From an uncultured Leifsonia sp. (GTDB lineage: Bacteria; Actinomycetota; Actinomycetes; Actinomycetales; Microbacteriaceae), in NCBI RefSeq assembly GCF_945957465.1, contig NZ_CAMFLC010000029.1:1-49569 (forward strand): a DNA stretch of 49,569 nucleotides, in the 5' to 3' direction. Every line of letters begins with the position of its first letter. The first letter of the stretch is position 1. The notes under the pieces are model-generated. The model had not been told where the DNA came from, did no database searches, and was given only the letters and a program-made list of their open reading frames with translations. Shown here in pieces: positions 67 through 47,183 of the stretch. The position numbers and the translations under genes were made by a program.

Positions 67-334
67 GCGGCGCCTCATGCGCCCTTCGCTCGGCCTTCGG
101 CGCCCCCTCGGCCGTCATGTCGGTTGCCATGGGCCGCGTGGCGCCGATTTCGAGCGAAGGGGCGCCGAAGGGCGCCGAAATGCCCTTATAACGGCACTTT
201 AGGGGCGTTTGCGTGCCCCTCGGGTGCCCCTCGCGGGCCCCTCGAGCGGTCCTTCGGCGGCCCCTCGGCGGGCCCCCGGGGCCCCTCAGGCGGCGGCTCG
301 GCGCGAGGAGCGCTGCCGGGCGTCTTCGACGCCG
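67..334. other. Non-coding low-complexity region rich in CCCCTCG
   Basis: No convincing gene is visible. After the edge array the sequence is built from many diverged copies of a CCCCTCG or CCCTTCG core, especially around 205-300, on either side of a full-length palindromic element at 166-222. Short open frames here have biased, repetitive composition and no family match. The region lies downstream of the minus-strand gene ending at 335, so it probably holds its 3' flank. Confidence 0.6.
166..222. repeat. 57-nt palindromic element, copy 1 (degenerate)
   Basis: Begins CGAAGGGCGC and ends GCGTGCCCCTCG, with total length 57 nt like the other four copies. About 19 of 28 arm positions pair. Its right half (TTTAGGGGCGTTTGCGTG followed by CCCCTCG) is nearly identical to the right half of the perfect copy at 8254-8310. 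Confidence 0.7.
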
Positions 335-1243
335 CTACATCCCACGCGGGGGCATGTTTTCGCGGCCTGGGACGAGCCTCCCGACCCGACGGATCAGCTC
401 GGCCGGAGTGCGGAGGTCGTCTGCGGTCACGCGGATCATCCTCCAGCCGAGATCCTCCACCCGTTCGCGGCGGCGGATGTCCTTCTGCCAGGTCTGACGG
501 TCGACACGATGGACGTCGCCTTCATACTCGAGGGCGACGCGCGCGTGCGGGTACGCGAGGTCGATGCGGGCGACGAACGCTCCGGACGCATCGCGCAGTT
601 CGTGATTGAGCAGTGGCACGGGGAGTCCGGCATCGGCGAGCAGCAGTCGCAACCGCGACTCGCCGGGTGATTCGGCTCCGTGCCTGATCGATCCGATCGC
701 CTCGCGGGCCCGGCCGATGCCCCGGCGGCCCGGCGCGGCGGCGATGGCGCGCGCCAGCGCGAGGCGATCGCTGAGAGGAGTCTCGCCACCGACGAGGAAG
801 TCGCCTGCGACCACCAGCGCATCGCGACCGAGCAGCTGGGCGAGGTCGAGCCAGGTCTGCTCGGGGGTCGTCACCGGCAGACCGTGGACCGTCCGGGTCT
901 CCCAGCGCGAGAGCTTGTGGCCGACGTACCCGCGGATGGCGGGCGCGCGAGCCGGGGCGCGGACCGTGACGTGGATGAGGTCGCCGACGCCGGGCAGCGG
1001 CACACCGTAGAGCAGCGCCGCGGTGGTGTGGCTGAACGCGAAGTCGAGGGGCCGGTGCAGTGCGTAGGCACGGCAGCGCGCGATGAGTCCGTCCGCCTCC
1101 ACCGAGACGCGCGTTCCGCGCACGGGAGTCAGCAGATCGCCTCCGCGGAGCCGCTTGCGCCCCACGCCGCCCGCGGTCGCGGCTGTGACGGTGAACGCGG
1201 AGTCGAGGAGGTGCGGTGGAAGTGGGCTGCGCTGTCGTGCCAT
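335..1243 (-). CDS. AbiEi-like / DUF559 (Vsr-fold) domain protein
   Basis: A protein of about 302 residues. The C-terminal third has the look of the DUF559/Vsr-like PD-(D/E)XK fold: a GESRLR motif, then ARIDLAYP, then VALEYEGDVHR, and a final strand-helix ending near DLRTPAELIRRV. The N-terminal part resembles the AbiEi-type region common in actinobacterial proteins of this architecture (LTPVRGTRVSV, then SHTTAALLYGVPLP). Such proteins are numerous in Microbacteriaceae and mostly uncharacterised; nuclease activity is only inferred, and no toxin partner lies beside it. The ATG at 1243 is chosen because a CAGGGT box sits exactly 7 nt upstream, the leaderless spacing seen at other genes here; an in-frame GTG at 1252 is the alternative. 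A 57-nt palindrome lies just upstream. Confidence 0.75.
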   Translation of the reverse strand: MARQRSPLPPHLLDSAFTVTAATAGGVGRKRLRGGDLLTPVRGTRVSVEADGLIARCRAYALHRPLDFAFSHTTAALLYGVPLPGVGDLIHVTVRAPARAPAIRGYVGHKLSRWETRTVHGLPVTTPEQTWLDLAQLLGRDALVVAGDFLVGGETPLSDRLALARAIAAAPGRRGIGRAREAIGSIRHGAESPGESRLRLLLADAGLPVPLLNHELRDASGAFVARIDLAYPHARVALEYEGDVHRVDRQTWQKDIRRRERVEDLGWRMIRVTADDLRTPAELIRRVGRLVPGRENMPPRGM

Positions 1244-1302: not shown

Positions 1303-1359
1303 CGAAGGGCGCGTAGGCGCCCTCAAAACGGCGCTATAGGGACATTAAGGCGCCCTTCG
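1303..1359. repeat. 57-nt palindromic element, copy 2
   Basis: Begins CGAAGGGCGC and ends GCGCCCTTCG, exactly 57 nt. The outer 10 bp pair perfectly, and about 18 of 28 arm positions pair overall. It lies 28 nt beyond the stop codon of the lacI-type gene, a position suited to a transcription terminator. Confidence 0.8.
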
Positions 1360-5914: not shown

Positions 5915-8227
5915 ATGACTACTGACAACCTCCCGGCCGTATCCGAGCGGGTCCGCCGCCTGCTGAGCGAGATGACGCTCGAAGAGAAGCTCGCGCAGAT
6001 CGTCGGCTACTGGGTCGACAAGGGCGACGACAACGTCGCGCCGCTCGACGGCGAGATGACGACGGGTCAGACGTACGCAGAGGCGACGGCGGCCGGGATC
6101 GGGCATCTGACCCGCGTCTACGGCACCCGCCCGGTCGACCCGGTGGAGCGCGCGAGCTGGCTGTGGTCGGAGCAGCGCCGCCTGCGGGAGCAGACCCGTC
6201 TCGGCATCCCCGCGCTGGTGCACGAGGAGTGCCTGACCGGGCTGGCGGCGTGGAAGGCAGCGACCTTCCCGACGCCCCTGGCCTGGGGCGCCGCATTCGA
6301 TCCCGCGCTGGTGGAGGAGGTGGGCGCCGCGATCGGGGCGTCCATGCGCGAGCTCGGCATCCACCAGGGCCTCGCCCCGGTGCTCGACGTGATCCGCGAC
6401 CCGCGCTGGGGCCGGGTGGACGAGTGCATCGCAGAGGACCCGTACGTGGTCGGGACGATCGGAACCGCGTACGTCCGCGGCCTGCAGTCGTCCGGGGTGC
6501 ACGCGACGCTCAAGCACTTCGTCGGCTACTCGGCATCGCAGGCGGGCCGCAACCACGCACCGGTGCACGCCGGGACGCGCGAGGTGCGGGATGTGCTGCT
6601 GCCGCCGTTCGAGATGGCGATCCGCGACGGCGGCGTGCGCTCGGTGATGAACTCGTACGCCGAGATCGACGGGGTGCCCGTCGCGGCGAACCCCGAATAT
6701 CTCACCGGCGTGCTCCGCGACGAGTGGGGCTTCGACGGGACCGTCGTGGCCGACTACTTCTCGGTCGCCTTCCTGCACACCATGCACCGCATCGCGGCCG
6801 ACCGCGGCGAGGCCGCGGAGCTGGCCCTGGCCGCGGGCATCGATGTCGAGCTGCCGACGGGTGACGCGTTCCTCGCACCGCTCGCCGACCGCATCCGCGC
6901 CGGCCTCGCCGACGAGGCGCTCGTCGACCGGGCGGTGCTGCGGCTGCTCGCGCAGAAGGAGGAGCTCGGTCTGCTCGACGAGACCTTCGACACTCCGCCG
7001 GCTTCGGTCGACCTGGACTCCCCCGCACACCGCGCGCTCGCGCTGCGGCTCGCCGAGGAATCGCTCGTGCTGCTCACCAACGACGGCACGCTGCCCCTCG
7101 AGGGGGACAGCGCCGCCGCGCGGATCGCCGTCGTCGGGCCCAATTCCGACGCGGCGGAAGCGCTCATGGGCTGCTACTCGTTCGCGAACCATGTGCTCGC
7201 CCATCACCCGGAGGTGCCGCTCGGCTTCGAGCTGCCCTCGATCCTGGCGGGACTGCGCGAGGAGTTCCCGGCCGCCGAGCTGGTGCACGCCCGCGGCTGC
7301 GATGTCGAAGGCGACGACCGTTCCGGCATCGTCACCGCCGTGAGCGCCGCCGCCGACGCCGACGTGGCCGTCGTCGTCGTGGGCGACCGCGCGGGTCTCT
7401 TCGGCCGCGGCACGGTCGGCGAGGGCAACGACGTCGAGAGCCTGGAACTGCCCGGCGTGCAGCGCGAGCTGGTGGAGGCGGTCGTCCGCACCGGCACGCC
7501 CACCGTCGTGGTCGTGCTCTCCGGCCGGCCGTACGCGATCGACTGGGCGGTGGAAGGCCTGGACGCCCCGGCCGCCGTGCTGCAGGCCTTCTTCCCCGGC
7601 GAGGAGGGCGGCCGCGCGATCGCCGCGGTGCTCTCCGGACGCGTCGCTCCCTCGGGCCACCTCCCCGTCTCGCTGCCGCGGTCGGCCGGCGCCCAGCCGT
7701 ACTCGTACCTCCACCCGCTGCTGGGCGGCCCGTCTGACGTGACGAGCGCCGACAGCACGCCCGTGCTGCCGTTCGGGCACGGCCTGAGCTACACGACGTT
7801 CGAGCGCAGCGGACTGGAGGCCGACGCGACGGTCGCCGCCGGCGCCGAATTCGAGGCGCGCGTGACCGTCCGCAACACCGGTGACCGCGCGGGCACCGAC
7901 CTGGTGCAGCTCTACGCGCGCGACGTGTTCGCCAGCGTGACGCGTCCGGTCGCCCAGCTGCTCGGCTACGCCCGCGTCGTGCTGGAGCCGGGCGAGGAGG
8001 CCGTCATCGCCTTCCAGGTCCCGACGGCCCGGCTGGCCTTCACCGGCCGCGACGGCGTGCGCATCGTGGAGCCCGGAGACGTGGAGCTGTGGGTCGGCCC
8101 GTCGTGCGCGCAGCGCGAGACGGTCGCGGCCATCGCGGTGGCGGGCCCGACGCACGCGGTCACGCCGGCCGACGGCCGCCTCGTGCGCGTCTCGGTCTCG
8201 GCTCCCGCTCCCGCCGAGCTCGCCTGA
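5915..8227 (+). CDS. Glycoside hydrolase family 3 (beta-glucosidase or beta-xylosidase)
   Basis: 770 residues. The ATG at 5915 follows AGGAAAGAAG. The order is a GH3 N-terminal barrel (KLAQIVGYWVDKG, then DPRWGR, then LKHFVGYSASQAGRN), the catalytic nucleophile Asp280 in GTVVADYFSV, the GH3 C-terminal sandwich (VVVVGDRAGLFGRGTVGEG), and a fibronectin-III-like C-terminal domain (GTDLVQLYARD). No signal peptide is visible, so it is probably cytoplasmic and cleaves sugars brought in by the ABC importer. The GIDVELPTGDAF segment and the short linker resemble cytoplasmic beta-xylosidases or beta-glucosidases; I cannot separate the two by eye. A perfect palindromic element follows 26 nt after the stop. 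Confidence 0.92.
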   Translation: MTTDNLPAVSERVRRLLSEMTLEEKLAQIVGYWVDKGDDNVAPLDGEMTTGQTYAEATAAGIGHLTRVYGTRPVDPVERASWLWSEQRRLREQTRLGIPALVHEECLTGLAAWKAATFPTPLAWGAAFDPALVEEVGAAIGASMRELGIHQGLAPVLDVIRDPRWGRVDECIAEDPYVVGTIGTAYVRGLQSSGVHATLKHFVGYSASQAGRNHAPVHAGTREVRDVLLPPFEMAIRDGGVRSVMNSYAEIDGVPVAANPEYLTGVLRDEWGFDGTVVADYFSVAFLHTMHRIAADRGEAAELALAAGIDVELPTGDAFLAPLADRIRAGLADEALVDRAVLRLLAQKEELGLLDETFDTPPASVDLDSPAHRALALRLAEESLVLLTNDGTLPLEGDSAAARIAVVGPNSDAAEALMGCYSFANHVLAHHPEVPLGFELPSILAGLREEFPAAELVHARGCDVEGDDRSGIVTAVSAAADADVAVVVVGDRAGLFGRGTVGEGNDVESLELPGVQRELVEAVVRTGTPTVVVVLSGRPYAIDWAVEGLDAPAAVLQAFFPGEEGGRAIAAVLSGRVAPSGHLPVSLPRSAGAQPYSYLHPLLGGPSDVTSADSTPVLPFGHGLSYTTFERSGLEADATVAAGAEFEARVTVRNTGDRAGTDLVQLYARDVFASVTRPVAQLLGYARVVLEPGEEAVIAFQVPTARLAFTGRDGVRIVEPGDVELWVGPSCAQRETVAAIAVAGPTHAVTPADGRLVRVSVSAPAPAELA

Positions 8228-8253: not shown

Positions 8254-8310
8254 CGAGGGGCACGCAAACGCCCCTAAAACCTGGTTTTAGGGGCGTTTGC
8301 GTGCCCCTCG
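8254..8310. repeat. 57-nt palindromic element, copy 3 (perfect inverted repeat)
   Basis: Two 28-nt arms (8254-8281 and 8283-8310) are exact reverse complements around a single central T. Outer ends are CGAGGGGCACG and CGTGCCCCTCG; the inner part reads CCCCTAAAACC then T then GGTTTTAGGGG. The element sits 26 nt after the GH3 stop and just before the bdhA promoter. It can form a very stable hairpin, so it probably ends transcription of the sugar operon, but its conserved length in five copies suggests a dispersed repeat family. Confidence 0.95.
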
Positions 8311-36045: not shown

Positions 36046-37110
36046 GTGACCCCCACCAAGACCACCCTCCGCTCCTGGACCGTCGCACTGCTCGTCGTGG
36101 GCTCGGCGCTCGTGCTCATCGGGGGTGGGATGGTCGCGGGAGGGTTCGCCGTCGCCGCGCTCTCGGCCGGCCGCAGCGGTTCGTGCGATGCCGCCCGGGT
36201 GGCCGACCAGGTGCTGCCGAGCGTGGTGACGATCGCGGTCGTCGGCCAGCGGGGCACCAGCAACGGAAGCGGCGAGATCATCACCGACGACGGCCACATC
36301 CTGACCAACAACCACGTCGTCGCCGACGCCGCTTCGGGAGCCCGGCTCACGGTGCGGTTCAGCGACGGGCACGAGCTGCCGGCGAAACTCACCGGACGGG
36401 ACCCCAAGACCGACCTCGCCGTGATCACCGTGTCGGACGACGAGCCGCTCCCCGTCATCGCCACCGGCGACTCCGGGTCGCTGGCCGTCGGTCAGCCGGT
36501 CGTCGCTCTCGGGGCTCCGCTCGGGCTCTCGAGCACGGTGACCGCCGGCATCGTCAGCGCTCTCGGCCGCACCGTCCCCGTGCCGAGCGACGACGACCGC
36601 AATGCGGTGCTCGCCGGTGCCATCCAGACCGACGCGTCCATCAACCCGGGCAACTCGGGAGGCGCGCTCGTGGACTGCAGCGGCCGGCTGGTCGGGATCA
36701 ACACCGCGATCGCGACCGTTCCCGGCTCGGCCGGCCAGAGCAGTACCGGCAGCGTCGGCATCGGCTTCGCCGTGCCGGAATCGCTCGCGCTGCCGATCGC
36801 GGACGAGCTGATCGCGCACGGCAGGGTCGCGCACCCCGAGGCGGGCCTGACCGTCGTGCCGATCCCTCCGGCCGCCGCCGCCAAGTTCGGCGTCACCGAC
36901 GGACTCTTCGTGCAGTCCATCGTCTCCGGCGGCCCCGCGCAGGAGGCCGGTCTGCGGGTCGGCGACGTGATCACCTCGGTGAACGGGCACGCGGCGACGA
37001 ACATCGACGTGCTCACCGCGATCCAGGTGACCAACTCGGCCGGTGACGAGGTGAGGGTCGAGTACATCCGCGACGGCGCGACGCACACGACGACGCTCAC
37101 GCTCGAGTAG
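36046..37110 (+). CDS. Membrane-anchored HtrA/DegP-type serine protease with PDZ domain
   Basis: 354 residues. One N-terminal membrane helix (about 12-40) anchors an extracytoplasmic trypsin-like domain with His90 (LTNNHVV), Asp123 (KTDLAVI) and Ser204 (NPGNSGGAL). A C-terminal PDZ domain begins near GLTVVPIPP and includes SIVSGGPAQEAGLRVGDVITSVNG. Such proteins degrade or repair misfolded exported proteins. Start GTG 36046 with GAGAAGAGG upstream and a TAGCCT box at about 36014. A 57-nt palindrome lies 16 nt after the stop and separates it from the convergent IclR gene. Confidence 0.93.
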   Translation: MTPTKTTLRSWTVALLVVGSALVLIGGGMVAGGFAVAALSAGRSGSCDAARVADQVLPSVVTIAVVGQRGTSNGSGEIITDDGHILTNNHVVADAASGARLTVRFSDGHELPAKLTGRDPKTDLAVITVSDDEPLPVIATGDSGSLAVGQPVVALGAPLGLSSTVTAGIVSALGRTVPVPSDDDRNAVLAGAIQTDASINPGNSGGALVDCSGRLVGINTAIATVPGSAGQSSTGSVGIGFAVPESLALPIADELIAHGRVAHPEAGLTVVPIPPAAAAKFGVTDGLFVQSIVSGGPAQEAGLRVGDVITSVNGHAATNIDVLTAIQVTNSAGDEVRVEYIRDGATHTTTLTLE

Positions 37111-37126
37111 CGGCGCGAGGGGTTGC

Positions 37127-37183
37127 CGAGGGGCGCGCAGACGCCCCGAAAACGGTCCGATAAGGGCGTTTGCGCGCCCCTCG
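37127..37183. repeat. 57-nt palindromic element, copy 4
   Basis: Begins CGAGGGGCGCGCAGACGCCCC and ends GGGCGTTTGCGCG then CCCCTCG; 57 nt. About 20 of 28 arm positions pair, including 13 at the outer end. It fills the gap between the convergent htrA-type and IclR genes, 16 nt from each stop, as a shared terminator would. Confidence 0.9.
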
Positions 37184-37198: not shown

Positions 37199-37957
37199 TC
37201 AGCTGCCGCGGATCCGGCGGGACAGCTCGGCGGCGGCCTCGCGCACCCGGGCGGCGAGCGCGTCCCACTCGGCGGCAGGCACGTTGTCGCGCGGGAAGGT
37301 GACCGCGATGCCGGCCGCCGGCCAGCCGGCGTGGTCGCGCACCGACACCGCGACGGACGCGAACCCGGGGGTGACATCGCCGTCCTCGGTCGCGTAGCCG
37401 CGTTCCCTCGCCTCCACGACGAGGCGGCGGAGTTCCGCGTACGAGTGCGGCCCGGCGCCCGTGCGATCCTCGAAGGCGCCCACGTCGGGGTACAGCGCCC
37501 GCAGCTGGCCCGGCGGCAGGGAGGCGAGCAGGGCTCGGCCGCTCGCCGTCAGGTGTGCGGGCAGCCGCACACCGACGTCGGTGACCAGCCGCGGCCGGCG
37601 CCGGGCCCGCTCCTCCACGATGTAGACGACGTCGCGGCCGTGCAGCACGGCCACGTGTCCCGACTCGCCGATCGCGTCGACCAGGGCGGCGACGATCGGG
37701 CGCCCGAGCCGGCTCAGCGGCTGCTGGCGGGAGAAGCCGCTCGACAGTTCGTAGGCGGCCACCCCCAGTCCGTAGCGGCGGGCCTCCGGGAAGTGCAGCA
37801 CGAATCCGTGCTCGGTCAGCACGGTGAGCAGGTGGTAGACCGTCGAGCGCGGCAGGCCGAGGGAGGCCGCGATGGCCGCCGCAGGCACCGGCCCGCGCTG
37901 GGTCGCCAGGAACGCGAGGATCCGCAGAGTGTGATCCGCGGCGGGGACCTTGCTCAT
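37199..37957 (-). CDS. IclR-family transcriptional regulator (probable hut regulator)
   Basis: 252 residues. N-terminal winged helix (ADHTLRILAFLATQ, then AAIAASLGLPRSTVYHLLTVL) and a C-terminal effector domain (LTASGRALLASLP, then GYATEDGDVTPGFASVAVSV, typical of IclR). The ATG at 37957 follows GGAGG; the frame extends only four codons upstream. It is divergent from hutH and so most likely controls histidine use, with urocanate or a later intermediate as ligand. A palindromic site at 38015-38032 lies in the shared region and recurs before hutG. Confidence 0.9.
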   Translation of the reverse strand: MSKVPAADHTLRILAFLATQRGPVPAAAIAASLGLPRSTVYHLLTVLTEHGFVLHFPEARRYGLGVAAYELSSGFSRQQPLSRLGRPIVAALVDAIGESGHVAVLHGRDVVYIVEERARRRPRLVTDVGVRLPAHLTASGRALLASLPPGQLRALYPDVGAFEDRTGAGPHSYAELRRLVVEARERGYATEDGDVTPGFASVAVSVRDHAGWPAAGIAVTFPRDNVPAAEWDALAARVREAAAELSRRIRGS

Positions 37958-38014
37958 CGGCTCCTCCATCGGCGGGTGCTCGGTGCGTGCACAGGTGCCT
38001 ACCGTTCGCGCGCG

Positions 38015-43695: not shown

Positions 43696-43752
43696 CGAGG
43701 GGCGCGTAAACGCCCTCATCCGCGCAGGATGAGAGCGTTCGGGCGCCCCTCG
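43696..43752. repeat. 57-nt palindromic element, copy 5
   Basis: Begins CGAGGGGCGCGTAAACGCCC and ends GCGTTCGGGCG then CCCCTCG; 57 nt. About 22 of 28 arm positions pair. It lies 8 nt after the stop of the RND transporter gene, between it and the hutG promoter. Confidence 0.9.
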
Positions 43753-43760
43753 ACGCCGGG

Positions 43761-46700
43761 TCAGAGCTGCTGCCCGCCCGCCGGCGTGGTGAACACCGGA
43801 GGCTTGGGAGCACCCTCGGAACCCTGCTCGGCGGCGCCGGGGCCGTCGGAGCCGGGCACCTCCGGGCCGGAGCCGTCGGGACCGCCCGCGCCGCCGGCGC
43901 CCCCGGTCCCCCCCTCGCCGTGCTTGGCCGCCCGGCGCGCCATCCGGCGCTCGCGGGCGCCCTCCACCAGGTTGTACAGCGTCGGCAGCACGACGAGCGT
44001 GAGCACCGTCGACGACAGCAGGCCGCCGATCACCACGATCGCGAGCGGCTGCGAGATGAAGCCGCCGTGACCGGTGAGGCCGATCGCCATGGGCGTGAGC
44101 GCCGCGATCGTCGCCAGGGCGGTCATCAGGATCGGCCGCAGACGGCGGGAGGCGCCGTGCGTCACCGCGTCGGCCACCGAGAGGCCTCTCGCCCGATACT
44201 GGTTGACCAGGTCGATGAGCACGATCGCGTTGGTCACGACGATGCCGATCAGCATGAGCACGCCGATCAGCGACGCCACTCCGAGCGGGATACCGGATGC
44301 GAGCTGCAGGAGGATCGCGCCGGTCGCCGCAAACGGCACCGACACGAGCAGCAGCAGCGGCTGCCGCAGCGAGCGGAAGGTCGCCACCATCACGATGTAG
44401 ACGATCAGGATGGCCGCCAGCAGAGCGAGACCCAGCTGACCGAACGCGCTCGACTGGCTCGACGAGACACCGCCGATCTTCGCGGTCGCCCCCGCGGGCA
44501 GGTCGGCCGCCTTCAGCGCCGCGCTGACCTCCTGGTTGGCCGTGGTGAGGTTGTCGCCCGGCGTCGCTGTCACGGTGGAGGTGCGCAGGCCGCGCTGGGT
44601 CGTGACGGTGGCGGGACCCTTCGCCTCCGCGACCGTCGCGATCGAGTTCAGCGGCACCACGCCCGTCGCGGTCGGGATCGGCAGGTCGGAGAGTCCGGCG
44701 ACGGTCGTCGGCGGGTTCTCGGTCTGGAGGTAGATCTTCAGCGTCGAGTTGTCGATCGCCACGGTTCCGATCTGTGTCGGCTGCATCGTCTGCGACACGA
44801 TCGTGCCCACTGCGACCTCGCTCAGGCCGACCTGCGCCGCCTTCGTGCGGTCGACGGTCACCGACACGTAGGGCAGCGACGCGCTCAGGTTGTCGGTGAC
44901 CTGGCTGAGGGACTTCTGCTTCTTCAGTTCGGCGACGACCGAGTCGGTGGCCTTCTGGAGGTCGGCGTTGCTGGTCGCGGTGATGTCCACCTGGATGTCG
45001 GTGGAGCCGCCGAAACCGCTCGAGGCCGACACCTGGATGCTGCCGGCGTCGCTGATCCCGTCCAGTTCGCTCTGGATGGTCGACTGGAGTTTCTCCTGGT
45101 CGGCGTTCGGATCGGTCGTGATCGAGAAGGTGGTCGCTCCGCCGCCGCCTGTGAAGGCGTCGCGCAGCGACGAGCCGCTGGAGCCGATCGAGACCTGGAC
45201 CGTCGTGACGCCCTTCGTGTCGAGCAGCTTCTGCTCGACCTTCTTGGCGGCGTCGTCCTGAGCCTGGAGGCTTGTGCCCGGGTCGAGGGACTGCGTCACG
45301 GTCAGGGAGTTCTGGCCGCTGGAGCCGAGGAAGTTCGTCTTGAGGAAGGGGAACGCCGCGAAGGTCAGCACCAGCACGATCGCGGCGGCGATGATCGTCA
45401 GCCAGGAGTGCCTGAGCGTCCAGTGGATGATCGGCAGGTAGCCGCGCTGGAGCAGCGACGGGTGCTCGAGCTCGTCGTGGCCGGACGCGATCGCTTCGGC
45501 GACCGACAGGTGCGCCGCCTCGTCGTCGTGCTCGCCGCCTTCGTGCTTGCGCGCCTTCGGCGCACGCAGGAACCAGTAGGCCAGCACCGGGACGATCGTC
45601 AGCGCCACGAGCAGCGACGACAGCAGTGCGATGGTCACGGTGAGCGCGAACGGCCGGAACAGCTCGCCCGTGACGTCGCCCACGAACGCCAGAGGCAGGA
45701 ACACGGCGACCGTGGTGATGGTGGAGGCGGTGATCGCGCCGGCCACCTCGCGCACCGCGCGCACGATGGTGACGGCTCTGTCGACGCCGGGCACGAGTTG
45801 CCGCTTGATGTTCTCGATGACCACGATCGAGTCGTCGACGACGCGGCCGATCGCGATCGTGAGGGCGCCGAGCGTGATGATGTTGAGCGTGTAGCCGCTC
45901 GCCCACATCACGACGAAGGTGATCAGCACGCTGGTCGGGATCGAGATCACGGTCACCAGCGTCGAGCGCACCGAGAGCAGGAACACCAGGATCACGATGA
46001 CGGCCATCGCGAGGCCGAGGAGGCCCTCCTCGGCCAGCGAGTTGATCGACTGGGTGATGAACGGTGCCTGGTCGAAGACGACGGTGATCTTCGCCCCGTT
46101 GCCGAGCTTGGTCTCGAGGTCGGGGATCAGCGCGGAGACGCTGTGCGACACTTCCACCGTGTTCGCGGAGGGCAGCTTGGTCACGGCGATGGTCAGGGCC
46201 GGCTTGCCGTCGACGCGCGAGAGCGAGGTCACCGGGTCGTCGGTCTGGGCGACGGTGGCGACGTCGCCGATCGTGACCGGCGTGGAGGCTGCGGCCGCCT
46301 GGGCCGCCGCCGCCTGCTGCGCGGCCGTGGAGCCGGCGCCCGAAGCGCCCTGCTGACCCGAAGCGCCCTGCTGACCCGAAGCGCCCTGCTGCCCCGTCGC
46401 CGAGCCGGCACCGCCCGAGCCGGAGCCTGCGGAGGCCGACGACACCTTGACCAGCGGCAGCGACGAGATGTCGGCGACCGAGGTGAGTTGCGACCCGGAC
46501 TGGATCGTCAGGGTCTTGCCGTTCTCGGTGAGTGAGCCGCCGGGCAGCAGCACGCCGTACTGCTGCAGCGAGTTCTTAATCGCCGAGCTGGTGACCCCGG
46601 CCGCCGCCAGCTTGGCCGGATCGGGCGTGATCGTGATGCGCTGGCCGACCTCGCCCACGAGCTGGGCGTCGTTGACGCCCGTCACGTTCTTGATGTCGGG

Positions 46701-47183
46701 CAGGGCGAGCTTGGTGATGTCGTCGCCGAGGGTGCGCTGGTCGGTGTCGCCGGTGACGGCCAGCTGGATGACCGGAAGGTCGTCGATGGATCCCGAGAGC
46801 ACCTGCGGGTCGACACCGGAGGGCAGGGTCGACTTGATCCGGTTGATCGCCTGGTCGATCTTCTGCTCCGCCGTCGCGAGATCGGTGCCGTACGTGAACT
46901 TCGCCGTGATGATCGACTGGTTGGTGCTGCTGACCGCGGAGGTCGACTCCAGATCGGGCACCCCCTGGATCGCCGCCTCCACCGGGGTGCTCACGTCGTT
47001 GTTGACCACCTCGGGAGAGGCCCCCGGATACGAGGACAGCACCACGAGCTGCGGGAACGAGATCGACGGGGCGAGCTCCTGCTTGAGGTTGGTGAGTGCG
47101 ATGCCGCCGAACACGGCGGCGACGATCGTGACGAGCGCGATCAGGGCGCGGTTCCTCATGCTGAGGACAGCGAGATAGTGCAC
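43761..47183 (-). CDS. RND-family efflux transporter (AcrB/SwrC-like)
   Basis: 1140 residues. The first membrane helix follows the start (MRNRALIALVTIVAAVFGGIAL), then KQELAPSISFPQLVVLSSYPGASPEVV, the usual RND entry. Membrane blocks at LLGLAMAVIVILVFLL and later FGQLGLALLAAILIVYIVM, and GRVVDDSIVVIENI with the proton-relay Asp pair, are clear. Two large extracytoplasmic loops are present; the first carries a low-complexity insert rich in Gly, Ser, Gln and Ala with three GQQGAS repeats. The tail of about 70 residues is Gly- and Pro-rich. No adaptor or outer membrane gene is linked, as expected in an actinobacterium. Start GTG 47183 is chosen for GAGGGG upstream. Substrate unknown. Confidence 0.92.
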   Translation of the reverse strand: MHYLAVLSMRNRALIALVTIVAAVFGGIALTNLKQELAPSISFPQLVVLSSYPGASPEVVNNDVSTPVEAAIQGVPDLESTSAVSSTNQSIITAKFTYGTDLATAEQKIDQAINRIKSTLPSGVDPQVLSGSIDDLPVIQLAVTGDTDQRTLGDDITKLALPDIKNVTGVNDAQLVGEVGQRITITPDPAKLAAAGVTSSAIKNSLQQYGVLLPGGSLTENGKTLTIQSGSQLTSVADISSLPLVKVSSASAGSGSGGAGSATGQQGASGQQGASGQQGASGAGSTAAQQAAAAQAAAASTPVTIGDVATVAQTDDPVTSLSRVDGKPALTIAVTKLPSANTVEVSHSVSALIPDLETKLGNGAKITVVFDQAPFITQSINSLAEEGLLGLAMAVIVILVFLLSVRSTLVTVISIPTSVLITFVVMWASGYTLNIITLGALTIAIGRVVDDSIVVIENIKRQLVPGVDRAVTIVRAVREVAGAITASTITTVAVFLPLAFVGDVTGELFRPFALTVTIALLSSLLVALTIVPVLAYWFLRAPKARKHEGGEHDDEAAHLSVAEAIASGHDELEHPSLLQRGYLPIIHWTLRHSWLTIIAAAIVLVLTFAAFPFLKTNFLGSSGQNSLTVTQSLDPGTSLQAQDDAAKKVEQKLLDTKGVTTVQVSIGSSGSSLRDAFTGGGGATTFSITTDPNADQEKLQSTIQSELDGISDAGSIQVSASSGFGGSTDIQVDITATSNADLQKATDSVVAELKKQKSLSQVTDNLSASLPYVSVTVDRTKAAQVGLSEVAVGTIVSQTMQPTQIGTVAIDNSTLKIYLQTENPPTTVAGLSDLPIPTATGVVPLNSIATVAEAKGPATVTTQRGLRTSTVTATPGDNLTTANQEVSAALKAADLPAGATAKIGGVSSSQSSAFGQLGLALLAAILIVYIVMVATFRSLRQPLLLLVSVPFAATGAILLQLASGIPLGVASLIGVLMLIGIVVTNAIVLIDLVNQYRARGLSVADAVTHGASRRLRPILMTALATIAALTPMAIGLTGHGGFISQPLAIVVIGGLLSSTVLTLVVLPTLYNLVEGARERRMARRAAKHGEGGTGGAGGAGGPDGSGPEVPGSDGPGAAEQGSEGAPKPPVFTTPAGGQQL
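46341..46394. repeat. 18-nt tandem repeat in RND gene, three units
   Basis: Three units of CGAAGCGCCCTGCTGACC (the last with one change) encode GQQGAS repeats in the extracytoplasmic insert of the transporter. In frame, so copy changes would lengthen or shorten the linker. Confidence 0.9.

Follow-up and report, generated by a model that had tools for sequence, protein, structure and literature searches.

The question raised by this locus is what spreads and keeps palindromes of one constant length behind the genes of a bacterial chromosome. Five palindromes of 57 nucleotides (nt), called family A here, lie in a stretch of 49,569 nt from an uncultured Leifsonia sp. (contig NZ_CAMFLC010000029.1; the whole stretch is referred to as the window), and two of them bracket a gene at 335-1243 for a protein with an AbiEi-like part and a Vsr-like nuclease domain. 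Based on the results of this study, the palindromes and the AbiEi-Vsr-like nuclease gene probably constitute a two-part element resembling repetitive extragenic palindromes (REPs). The palindromes are dispersed, constant in length, placed at the 3' ends of genes and present or absent at orthologous sites; they bracket the nuclease and diverge together with it, while Y1 transposase, the REP partner, was undetected. Taken together, this points to a REP-like genetic element of a new kind.

Family A in the window and the genome

The original prediction, made from the letters of the window, described five palindromes beginning with CGARGGGCRC and ending in a mirrored GYGCCCYTCG. All five were recovered (Table 1), with the pattern, the length of 57 nt and the mirrored ends as described. 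Watson-Crick pairs are formed at 19 (copy at 166), 18 (1303), 28 (8254), 20 (37127) and 22 (43696) of the 28 arm positions. Four copies had been placed 8-28 nt after a stop codon, which held, and the fifth also lies behind a stop. The nearest preceding stops are at 112 nt (166), 28 nt (1303, behind the LacI-type gene at 1388-2359 on the minus strand), 26 nt (8254), 16 and 15 nt (37127, between convergent genes) and 8 nt (43696). The energies of all ten folds (five copies, both strands) were 2.6-12.6 standard deviations under those of dinucleotide shuffles. The half-site pattern with at most two mismatches was found 17 times in the window against 5.6 expected, a count reached in 0 of 100 shuffles. 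No match in the window exceeded the gathering threshold of any Rfam family.

A search for further copies through the own genome (G000; 4.06 Mb, 112 contigs) with a strict pattern permitting 52-64 nt gave 37 sites, every one of 57 nt, and the reversed control gave none. A covariance model trained on 39 copies made at least 150 both-strand matches genome-wide, and 80 sites, a lower bound for the genome, were kept at E ≤0.001 in 847 kb of own-genome tiles, which had been chosen partly for already holding sites. Second-strand rows and places found twice in two loci were removed from this set, as were three anomalous places (one clipped by a contig end, one of 36 nt and one of 58 nt). The dispersed REP-like family that had been proposed was thus sustained by 80 sites with constant length, by their placement at 3' ends and by empty sites in relatives.

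The ends of the arms, CGARGGGC and GCCCYTCG, are near-invariant (in the 80 model-chosen sites, 155-160 of the 160 arms agree at positions 1-3 and 5-8), the middles of the arms vary, and the centre is approximately AAAACnnnGTTTT. Columns 11 and 47, in mid-stem, are paired in 19 of 39 copies and show no covariation, and therefore stem pairing alone does not account for the conservation. Additional CGARGGGC units run outward from the palindrome at exact steps of 11 nt (+11, +22 and +33 nt) in the own genome; the unit at +11 occurs in up to 43 of 77 sites, with counts of 0 or 1 at the neighbouring offsets, and end-to-end lengths consequently cluster at 57, 68, 79, 90 and 101 nt. Such units flank window palindromes as well as many other sites of the genome.

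Placement was scored against the calls of a simple codon-usage gene caller. None of the 80 sites fell inside a predicted gene; 37 lay in convergent gaps, 32 in tandem and 2 in divergent gaps (71 classifiable), and 9 at contig edges, where the tiles offered 120 convergent, 483 tandem and 123 divergent gaps. Enrichment at 3' ends was accordingly found, with convergent gaps over-represented (Fisher p 1e-10) and divergent gaps under-represented (p 5e-4). Since some sites share one spacer, the count was repeated with each of the 61 spacers taken once, giving 30 convergent, 23 tandem, 2 divergent and 6 edge spacers (p 1e-9 and 0.007). Among tandem sites, 26 of 32 were closer to the upstream stop than to the downstream start. 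No T-run followed the palindromes, T making up 13% of the next 10 nt in 87 transcript-side flanks.

Some copies form tandem clusters: eight at L045 1260-1991 (contig C30), four at L042 5218-5652 (C5) and four at L046 12488-12852 (C71). With steps of about 83-140 nt, these are apparently local tandem duplications; attC-like arrays were weighed for them and set aside on this appearance, no integrase having been sought. Contig C71 ends within its array, and the repeats may therefore break the assembly.

The nuclease gene and its bracketing

The protein of the gene at 335-1243 matches the PADLOC AbiEi profile over residues 63-198 (E 3e-9) and carries an MTES_1575/DUF559 Vsr-like endonuclease domain at about residues 190-300. 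Pfam AbiEi_1 appeared below its cut-off in two of eight proteins scanned, the window protein not among them. A Vsr-type fold is predicted for the catalytic domain from a model built on three sequences, which is usable for residues ~192-290 alone; the single-sequence model was poor (predicted local distance difference test score, pLDDT, 41). In structural comparison this domain was closest to the homing endonuclease I-Bth0305I (3r3p) and Vsr (1cw0, 1vsr), with TnsA, VRR_NUC and mitoribosome proteins likewise among the rows. Sequence searches of the PDB were weak, the profile query giving 3r3p as its best match (E 0.11) and the single-sequence query matching de novo proteins; a comparison of profiles from the two alignments made here gave no new information. 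Acidic and His residues of the predicted nuclease domain are invariant in 30 of 30 aligned proteins, and the gene likely encodes a DNA-cutting enzyme.

Homologues, 119 in all, were found in 27 of 28 Leifsonia genomes, and 70 of their loci were examined (30 fetched automatically and 40 hand-picked, mostly best first plus members of the own clade). Bracketing was scored automatically as a palindrome on each side, the two agreeing at 16 or more of 20 bases. It was present at 52 of the 70 nuclease loci versus 4 of 907 other genes, the latter taken from tiles in which palindromes are abundant in any case. Palindromes stood on both flanks of 53 nuclease loci and 91 controls; where both were present, they matched each other at 52 of 53 nuclease loci versus 4 of 91 controls. 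The clearest of the four bracketed controls, at L102 12714-13361 of genome G011, lies between two palindromes of family B and was not identified as a nuclease gene. Bracketing was also seen at 15 of 30 loci in other genera of Microbacteriaceae and at 19 of 30 in another family of Micrococcales, where the flanks were wider than those of the control. Among homologues in named genomes, that of Leifsonia poae is bracketed and that of Root227 (a partial match) is not; Diaminobutyricibacter tongyongensis also has a bracketed homologue, with the same palindromes as L296 and probably that locus again. In bracketing pairs the shorter palindrome measures 58 nt at the median, with 47 of 67 within 53-63 nt.

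Pairing of nuclease and palindrome

Every lineage of the nuclease is paired with a palindrome family of its own, and both diverge together. Over the 52 bracketed loci, nuclease distance and palindrome distance were correlated (Mantel r 0.635, 0 of 2000 permutations); when the shuffling of palindromes was restricted to paralogues sharing a genome, r fell to 0.095 ± 0.054 (0 of 2000). Nucleases less than 30% apart had a palindrome in common in 94% of 35 pairs; for paralogues within one genome the figure was 2.6% of 38 pairs. The own genome contains a second family (CGAGACGTGA...), cognate to a 56% paralogue on contig C7, whose 28 half-sites form 14 copies, all of 58 nt end to end. Of the long intergenic palindromes, 70 of 98 in the own-genome tiles matched a family that brackets a nuclease of some genome, a figure inflated by the choice of tiles partly for family A, as did 24 of 31 in G027 and 11 of 24 in G011; after the arms of the own-genome palindromes had been shuffled, 0 of 98 matched.

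Presence and absence in relatives

Six of the 28 Leifsonia genomes have at least 60 both-strand matches to family A (E ≤1e-5) and the remaining 22 at most 8; the six are the same six that have a nuclease homologue of at least 71% identity. Genome G024, a member of the own clade by its trypsin-PDZ protein, is without a close homologue and has 8 both-strand matches.

Empty sites, for which the original prediction proposed a check, do exist, and orthologous spacers are filled or empty depending on the species. The site at 37127 holds family A in G000, G026 and G010 and is empty in G008, G024, G020 and G027, whose spacers measure 6-29 nt; the site at 43696 is filled in six of eight species compared, and 8 of its 27 pairs have changed on both sides. 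The difference between filled and empty spacers has a median of 62 nt (58 directional comparisons from 29 pairs at a handful of sites). The gene ends of other species have different palindrome families, such as one of 59 nt in G011 and G002. A sub-family, A2, has the ends and the 57-nt length of family A with another interior (L085 3564-3620, L005 2138-2194, L010 2039-2095), and one A2 copy is common to the own genome and G027 at an orthologous site. The mean identity of 21 orthologous palindrome pairs was 0.76, versus 0.69 between copies within G000 and 0.76 within G027, and strong concerted evolution found no clear support in these values.

Annotated neighbours of the nuclease are the LacI-type gene in the window and an oxidoreductase gene in G020, with no AbiEii among them. 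In G008 and G020 the nuclease and oxidoreductase genes stand between the LacI-type gene and a gene of 219 amino acids; in G024 and G027 the latter two adjoin, without nuclease and oxidoreductase, and in G000 the contig stops past the nuclease. Identities across G000, G008 and G020 were 74-79% for the nuclease genes as called (77-82% within the aligned core) and 92-98% for the LacI-type, solute-binding and 219-residue neighbours. In place of the nuclease and oxidoreductase genes of G008 and G020, G027 has a foreign-looking open reading frame of 272 amino acids (L135 5649-6467), which adjoins a truncated copy of family A located where the LacI-type gene ends.

Table 1. Coordinates of the family A palindromes, outward units and nuclease gene in the window
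Feature	Position	Strand	Context
Outward 11-nt unit CGAAGGGGCGC	155..165	+	in phase with palindrome 166..222
57-nt palindrome, family A	166..222		112 nt 3' of nuclease gene
Two outward 11-nt units, + strand letters GGTGCCCCTCG and CGGGCCCCTCG	223..244	-	
Nuclease gene, 302 amino acids, inferred ATG start	335..1243	-	bracketed by family A palindromes 166 and 1303
57-nt palindrome, family A	1303..1359		59 nt 5' of inferred nuclease start codon
Perfect 57-nt palindrome, family A	8254..8310		26 nt past stop of GH3 gene 5915-8227 (plus)
Outward 11-nt unit CGAGGGGTTGC, two departures from motif	37116..37126	+	
57-nt palindrome, family A	37127..37183		between convergent trypsin-PDZ (36046-37110) and IclR-type (37199-37969) genes
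57-nt palindrome, family A	43696..43752		8 nt past stop of AcrB-type gene 43761-47183 (minus)

Interpretation and alternatives

In the two-part element that we propose, the palindromes would be the dispersed non-coding part and the gene at 335-1243, between two copies, the other part. The nuclease would recognise its cognate palindrome mainly by the conserved outer ends, with the AbiEi-like part as the putative recogniser, and the Vsr-like part would nick or cut it. Repair or strand transfer could then copy palindromes into new extragenic places, and copies would persist mainly behind stop codons, presumably the place of least harm, where they may act as two-way hairpins at transcript ends. 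Use of the palindromes as terminators is possible; they are predicted to be strong hairpins at gene ends, and no T-run follows them.

Several observations weigh against this proposal. No target-site duplication was found in 77 sites (k 2-9, z -0.55 to 2.0), and the MITE-like character (miniature inverted-repeat transposable element) once suggested for the family was not borne out; filled minus empty spacers ranged from -90 to 109 nt, which leaves no clean insertion boundary. The link between copy number and nuclease is confounded with ancestry because the six high-copy genomes are close relatives. Genome G010 retains many family A copies despite a close homologue that looks broken, with pieces in different frames (contig C45 231294-232042), and the closest nuclease in G027 is bracketed by sub-family A2 instead of A. 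The second family also occurs in G010, G026 and G027, for which no homologue as close as 54-56% to its nuclease is listed, and the neighbouring oxidoreductase is as diverged as the nuclease (about 77-80% identity). The outward 11-nt units are near-specific to the own genome, being seen at 1 of 18 copies in G027. Bracketing failed at 18 of 70 loci in Leifsonia, 15 of 30 in the other genera and 11 of 30 in the other family, nearly all without a detected palindrome on at least one side. Relatives of the nuclease were absent from viral contigs and rare in the plasmid and phage collections (four plasmid records below 60% identity, one weak phage record), and thus no movement from cell to cell was seen.

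The strongest competing explanation takes the palindromes to be immobile. They would be fixed sites bound by the AbiEi-Vsr protein, whether as operators or for supercoiling or chromosome structure; the protein would regulate or mark DNA, and its sites would arise and persist by selection. The strongly conserved outer motif, the mid-stem columns without covariation, the extra motifs phased at 11 nt (about one helical turn) in the own genome and the operator-like position of one bracketing copy in the nuclease leader all agree with this explanation. We nevertheless consider it unlikely, since the exact length of 57 nt, the tens of copies, the abundance in one clade and the presence or absence at orthologous spacers resemble the copying of a unit, and the phased units are nearly missing in G027. 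A still smaller chance is given to the view that the palindromes are transcription-end hairpins, i.e., terminators or mRNA stabilisers, which spread by ordinary duplication and to which the nuclease link is secondary. The 3'-end placement, the strong folds on both strands and the two-sided changes at eight pairs of the orthologous 43696 site fit such hairpins; yet no T-run follows, a terminator does not need a constant length, and bracketing and lineage-specific pairing are left unexplained. A pure RNA-hairpin reading was rejected on the unpaired state of columns 11 and 47 in about half of the copies and on their lack of covariation, although the two-sided changes at 43696 speak the other way.

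Equally improbable, in our estimate, is that the nuclease is a selfish or defence gene of homing or restriction type, with the palindromes as recognition or self-marking sites that change by gene conversion between existing palindromes and not by new insertion. The catalytic domain is nearest to I-Bth0305I and Vsr, and the consensus sequences of G027 and G000 differ at both ends together. However, new sites would need another source, and orthologous copies keep some extra similarity (0.72-0.86 in three G000-G027 pairs versus 0.683 for random pairs).

Beyond the two-part element itself, a wider claim is made more tentatively. Such elements may represent separate, independently evolved REP-like mobile palindromes, widespread in Micrococcales, in which a Vsr-like enzyme of homing-endonuclease type with an AbiEi-type DNA reader takes the place of the Y1 transposase, and in which each enzyme lineage builds and rewrites its own family of about 57 nt, so that a large share of the host's long intergenic palindromes comes from such families. 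If true, many gene-end hairpins of these genomes would be accounted for, DUF559/MTES_1575 genes with an AbiEi-like part, a family common in actinobacteria and mostly identified by number, would gain a function, and tens of natural enzyme-site pairs would be available for studying the evolution of DNA recognition.

Comparison with known systems

Among the titles and beginnings of abstracts listed from the open-access literature (PMC), none tied DUF559, AbiEi or Vsr-like nucleases to dispersed palindromes or described a Leifsonia repeat of a similar kind; we know of no such system. Intrinsic terminators share the G+C-rich stem and differ in the T-run that follows it. Terminators without T-runs are common in actinobacteria. 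MITEs are likewise short, non-coding, extragenic and dispersed with inverted ends; here the target-site duplication is absent and no transposase was identified in the search for the Y1 family. AbiEi is the antitoxin of a type IV toxin-antitoxin pair and binds the inverted repeats of its own operator. The window protein resembles it over the residues that match the PADLOC profile and differs from it in being joined to a nuclease domain, with no AbiEii among the annotated neighbours in the window and G020. Compared with Vsr and I-Bth0305I, the nuclease differs in its fusion to an AbiEi-like part and in the palindromes that bracket its gene, and no intron context was seen.

The textbook example of palindromes linked to a domesticated transposase in bacteria is that of REPs, or bacterial interspersed mosaic elements (BIMEs), with the REP-associated tyrosine transposase (RAYT, also TnpA-REP or REPtron). 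The likeness lies in extragenic palindromes in tens of copies, some of them clustered, and in a chromosomal enzyme gene between two palindromes, enzyme and palindrome diverging together (PMC2817692; PMC8266576). RAYTs are there described as bracketed by two REPs, with coupled and fast evolution and REP abundance tied to the presence of the enzyme (PMC2817692). The RAYT-like transposase suggested by the original prediction was not found: the search, confined to the Y1 family (PF01797) among transposases, gave 0 of 28 Leifsonia genomes, the own included, and was positive in 5 of 14 control genomes. The partner here is instead an AbiEi-like part with a Vsr-type nuclease. The GT(A/G)G head of REPs (PMC2817692) is absent here, and both arms end in CGARGGGC; the palindrome measures about 57 nt versus the 20-40 bp stated for REPs (PMC3733652). 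The host belongs to Micrococcales, whereas RAYTs with abundant REPs are reported only from gammaproteobacteria (PMC2817692). Because two defining features, the Y1 partner and the GT(A/G)G head, were looked for and not found, the element is not filed as a REPtron, though by our reading it would work like one. If true, a second system with the same layout and an unrelated nuclease would mean that such a way of life arose more than once.
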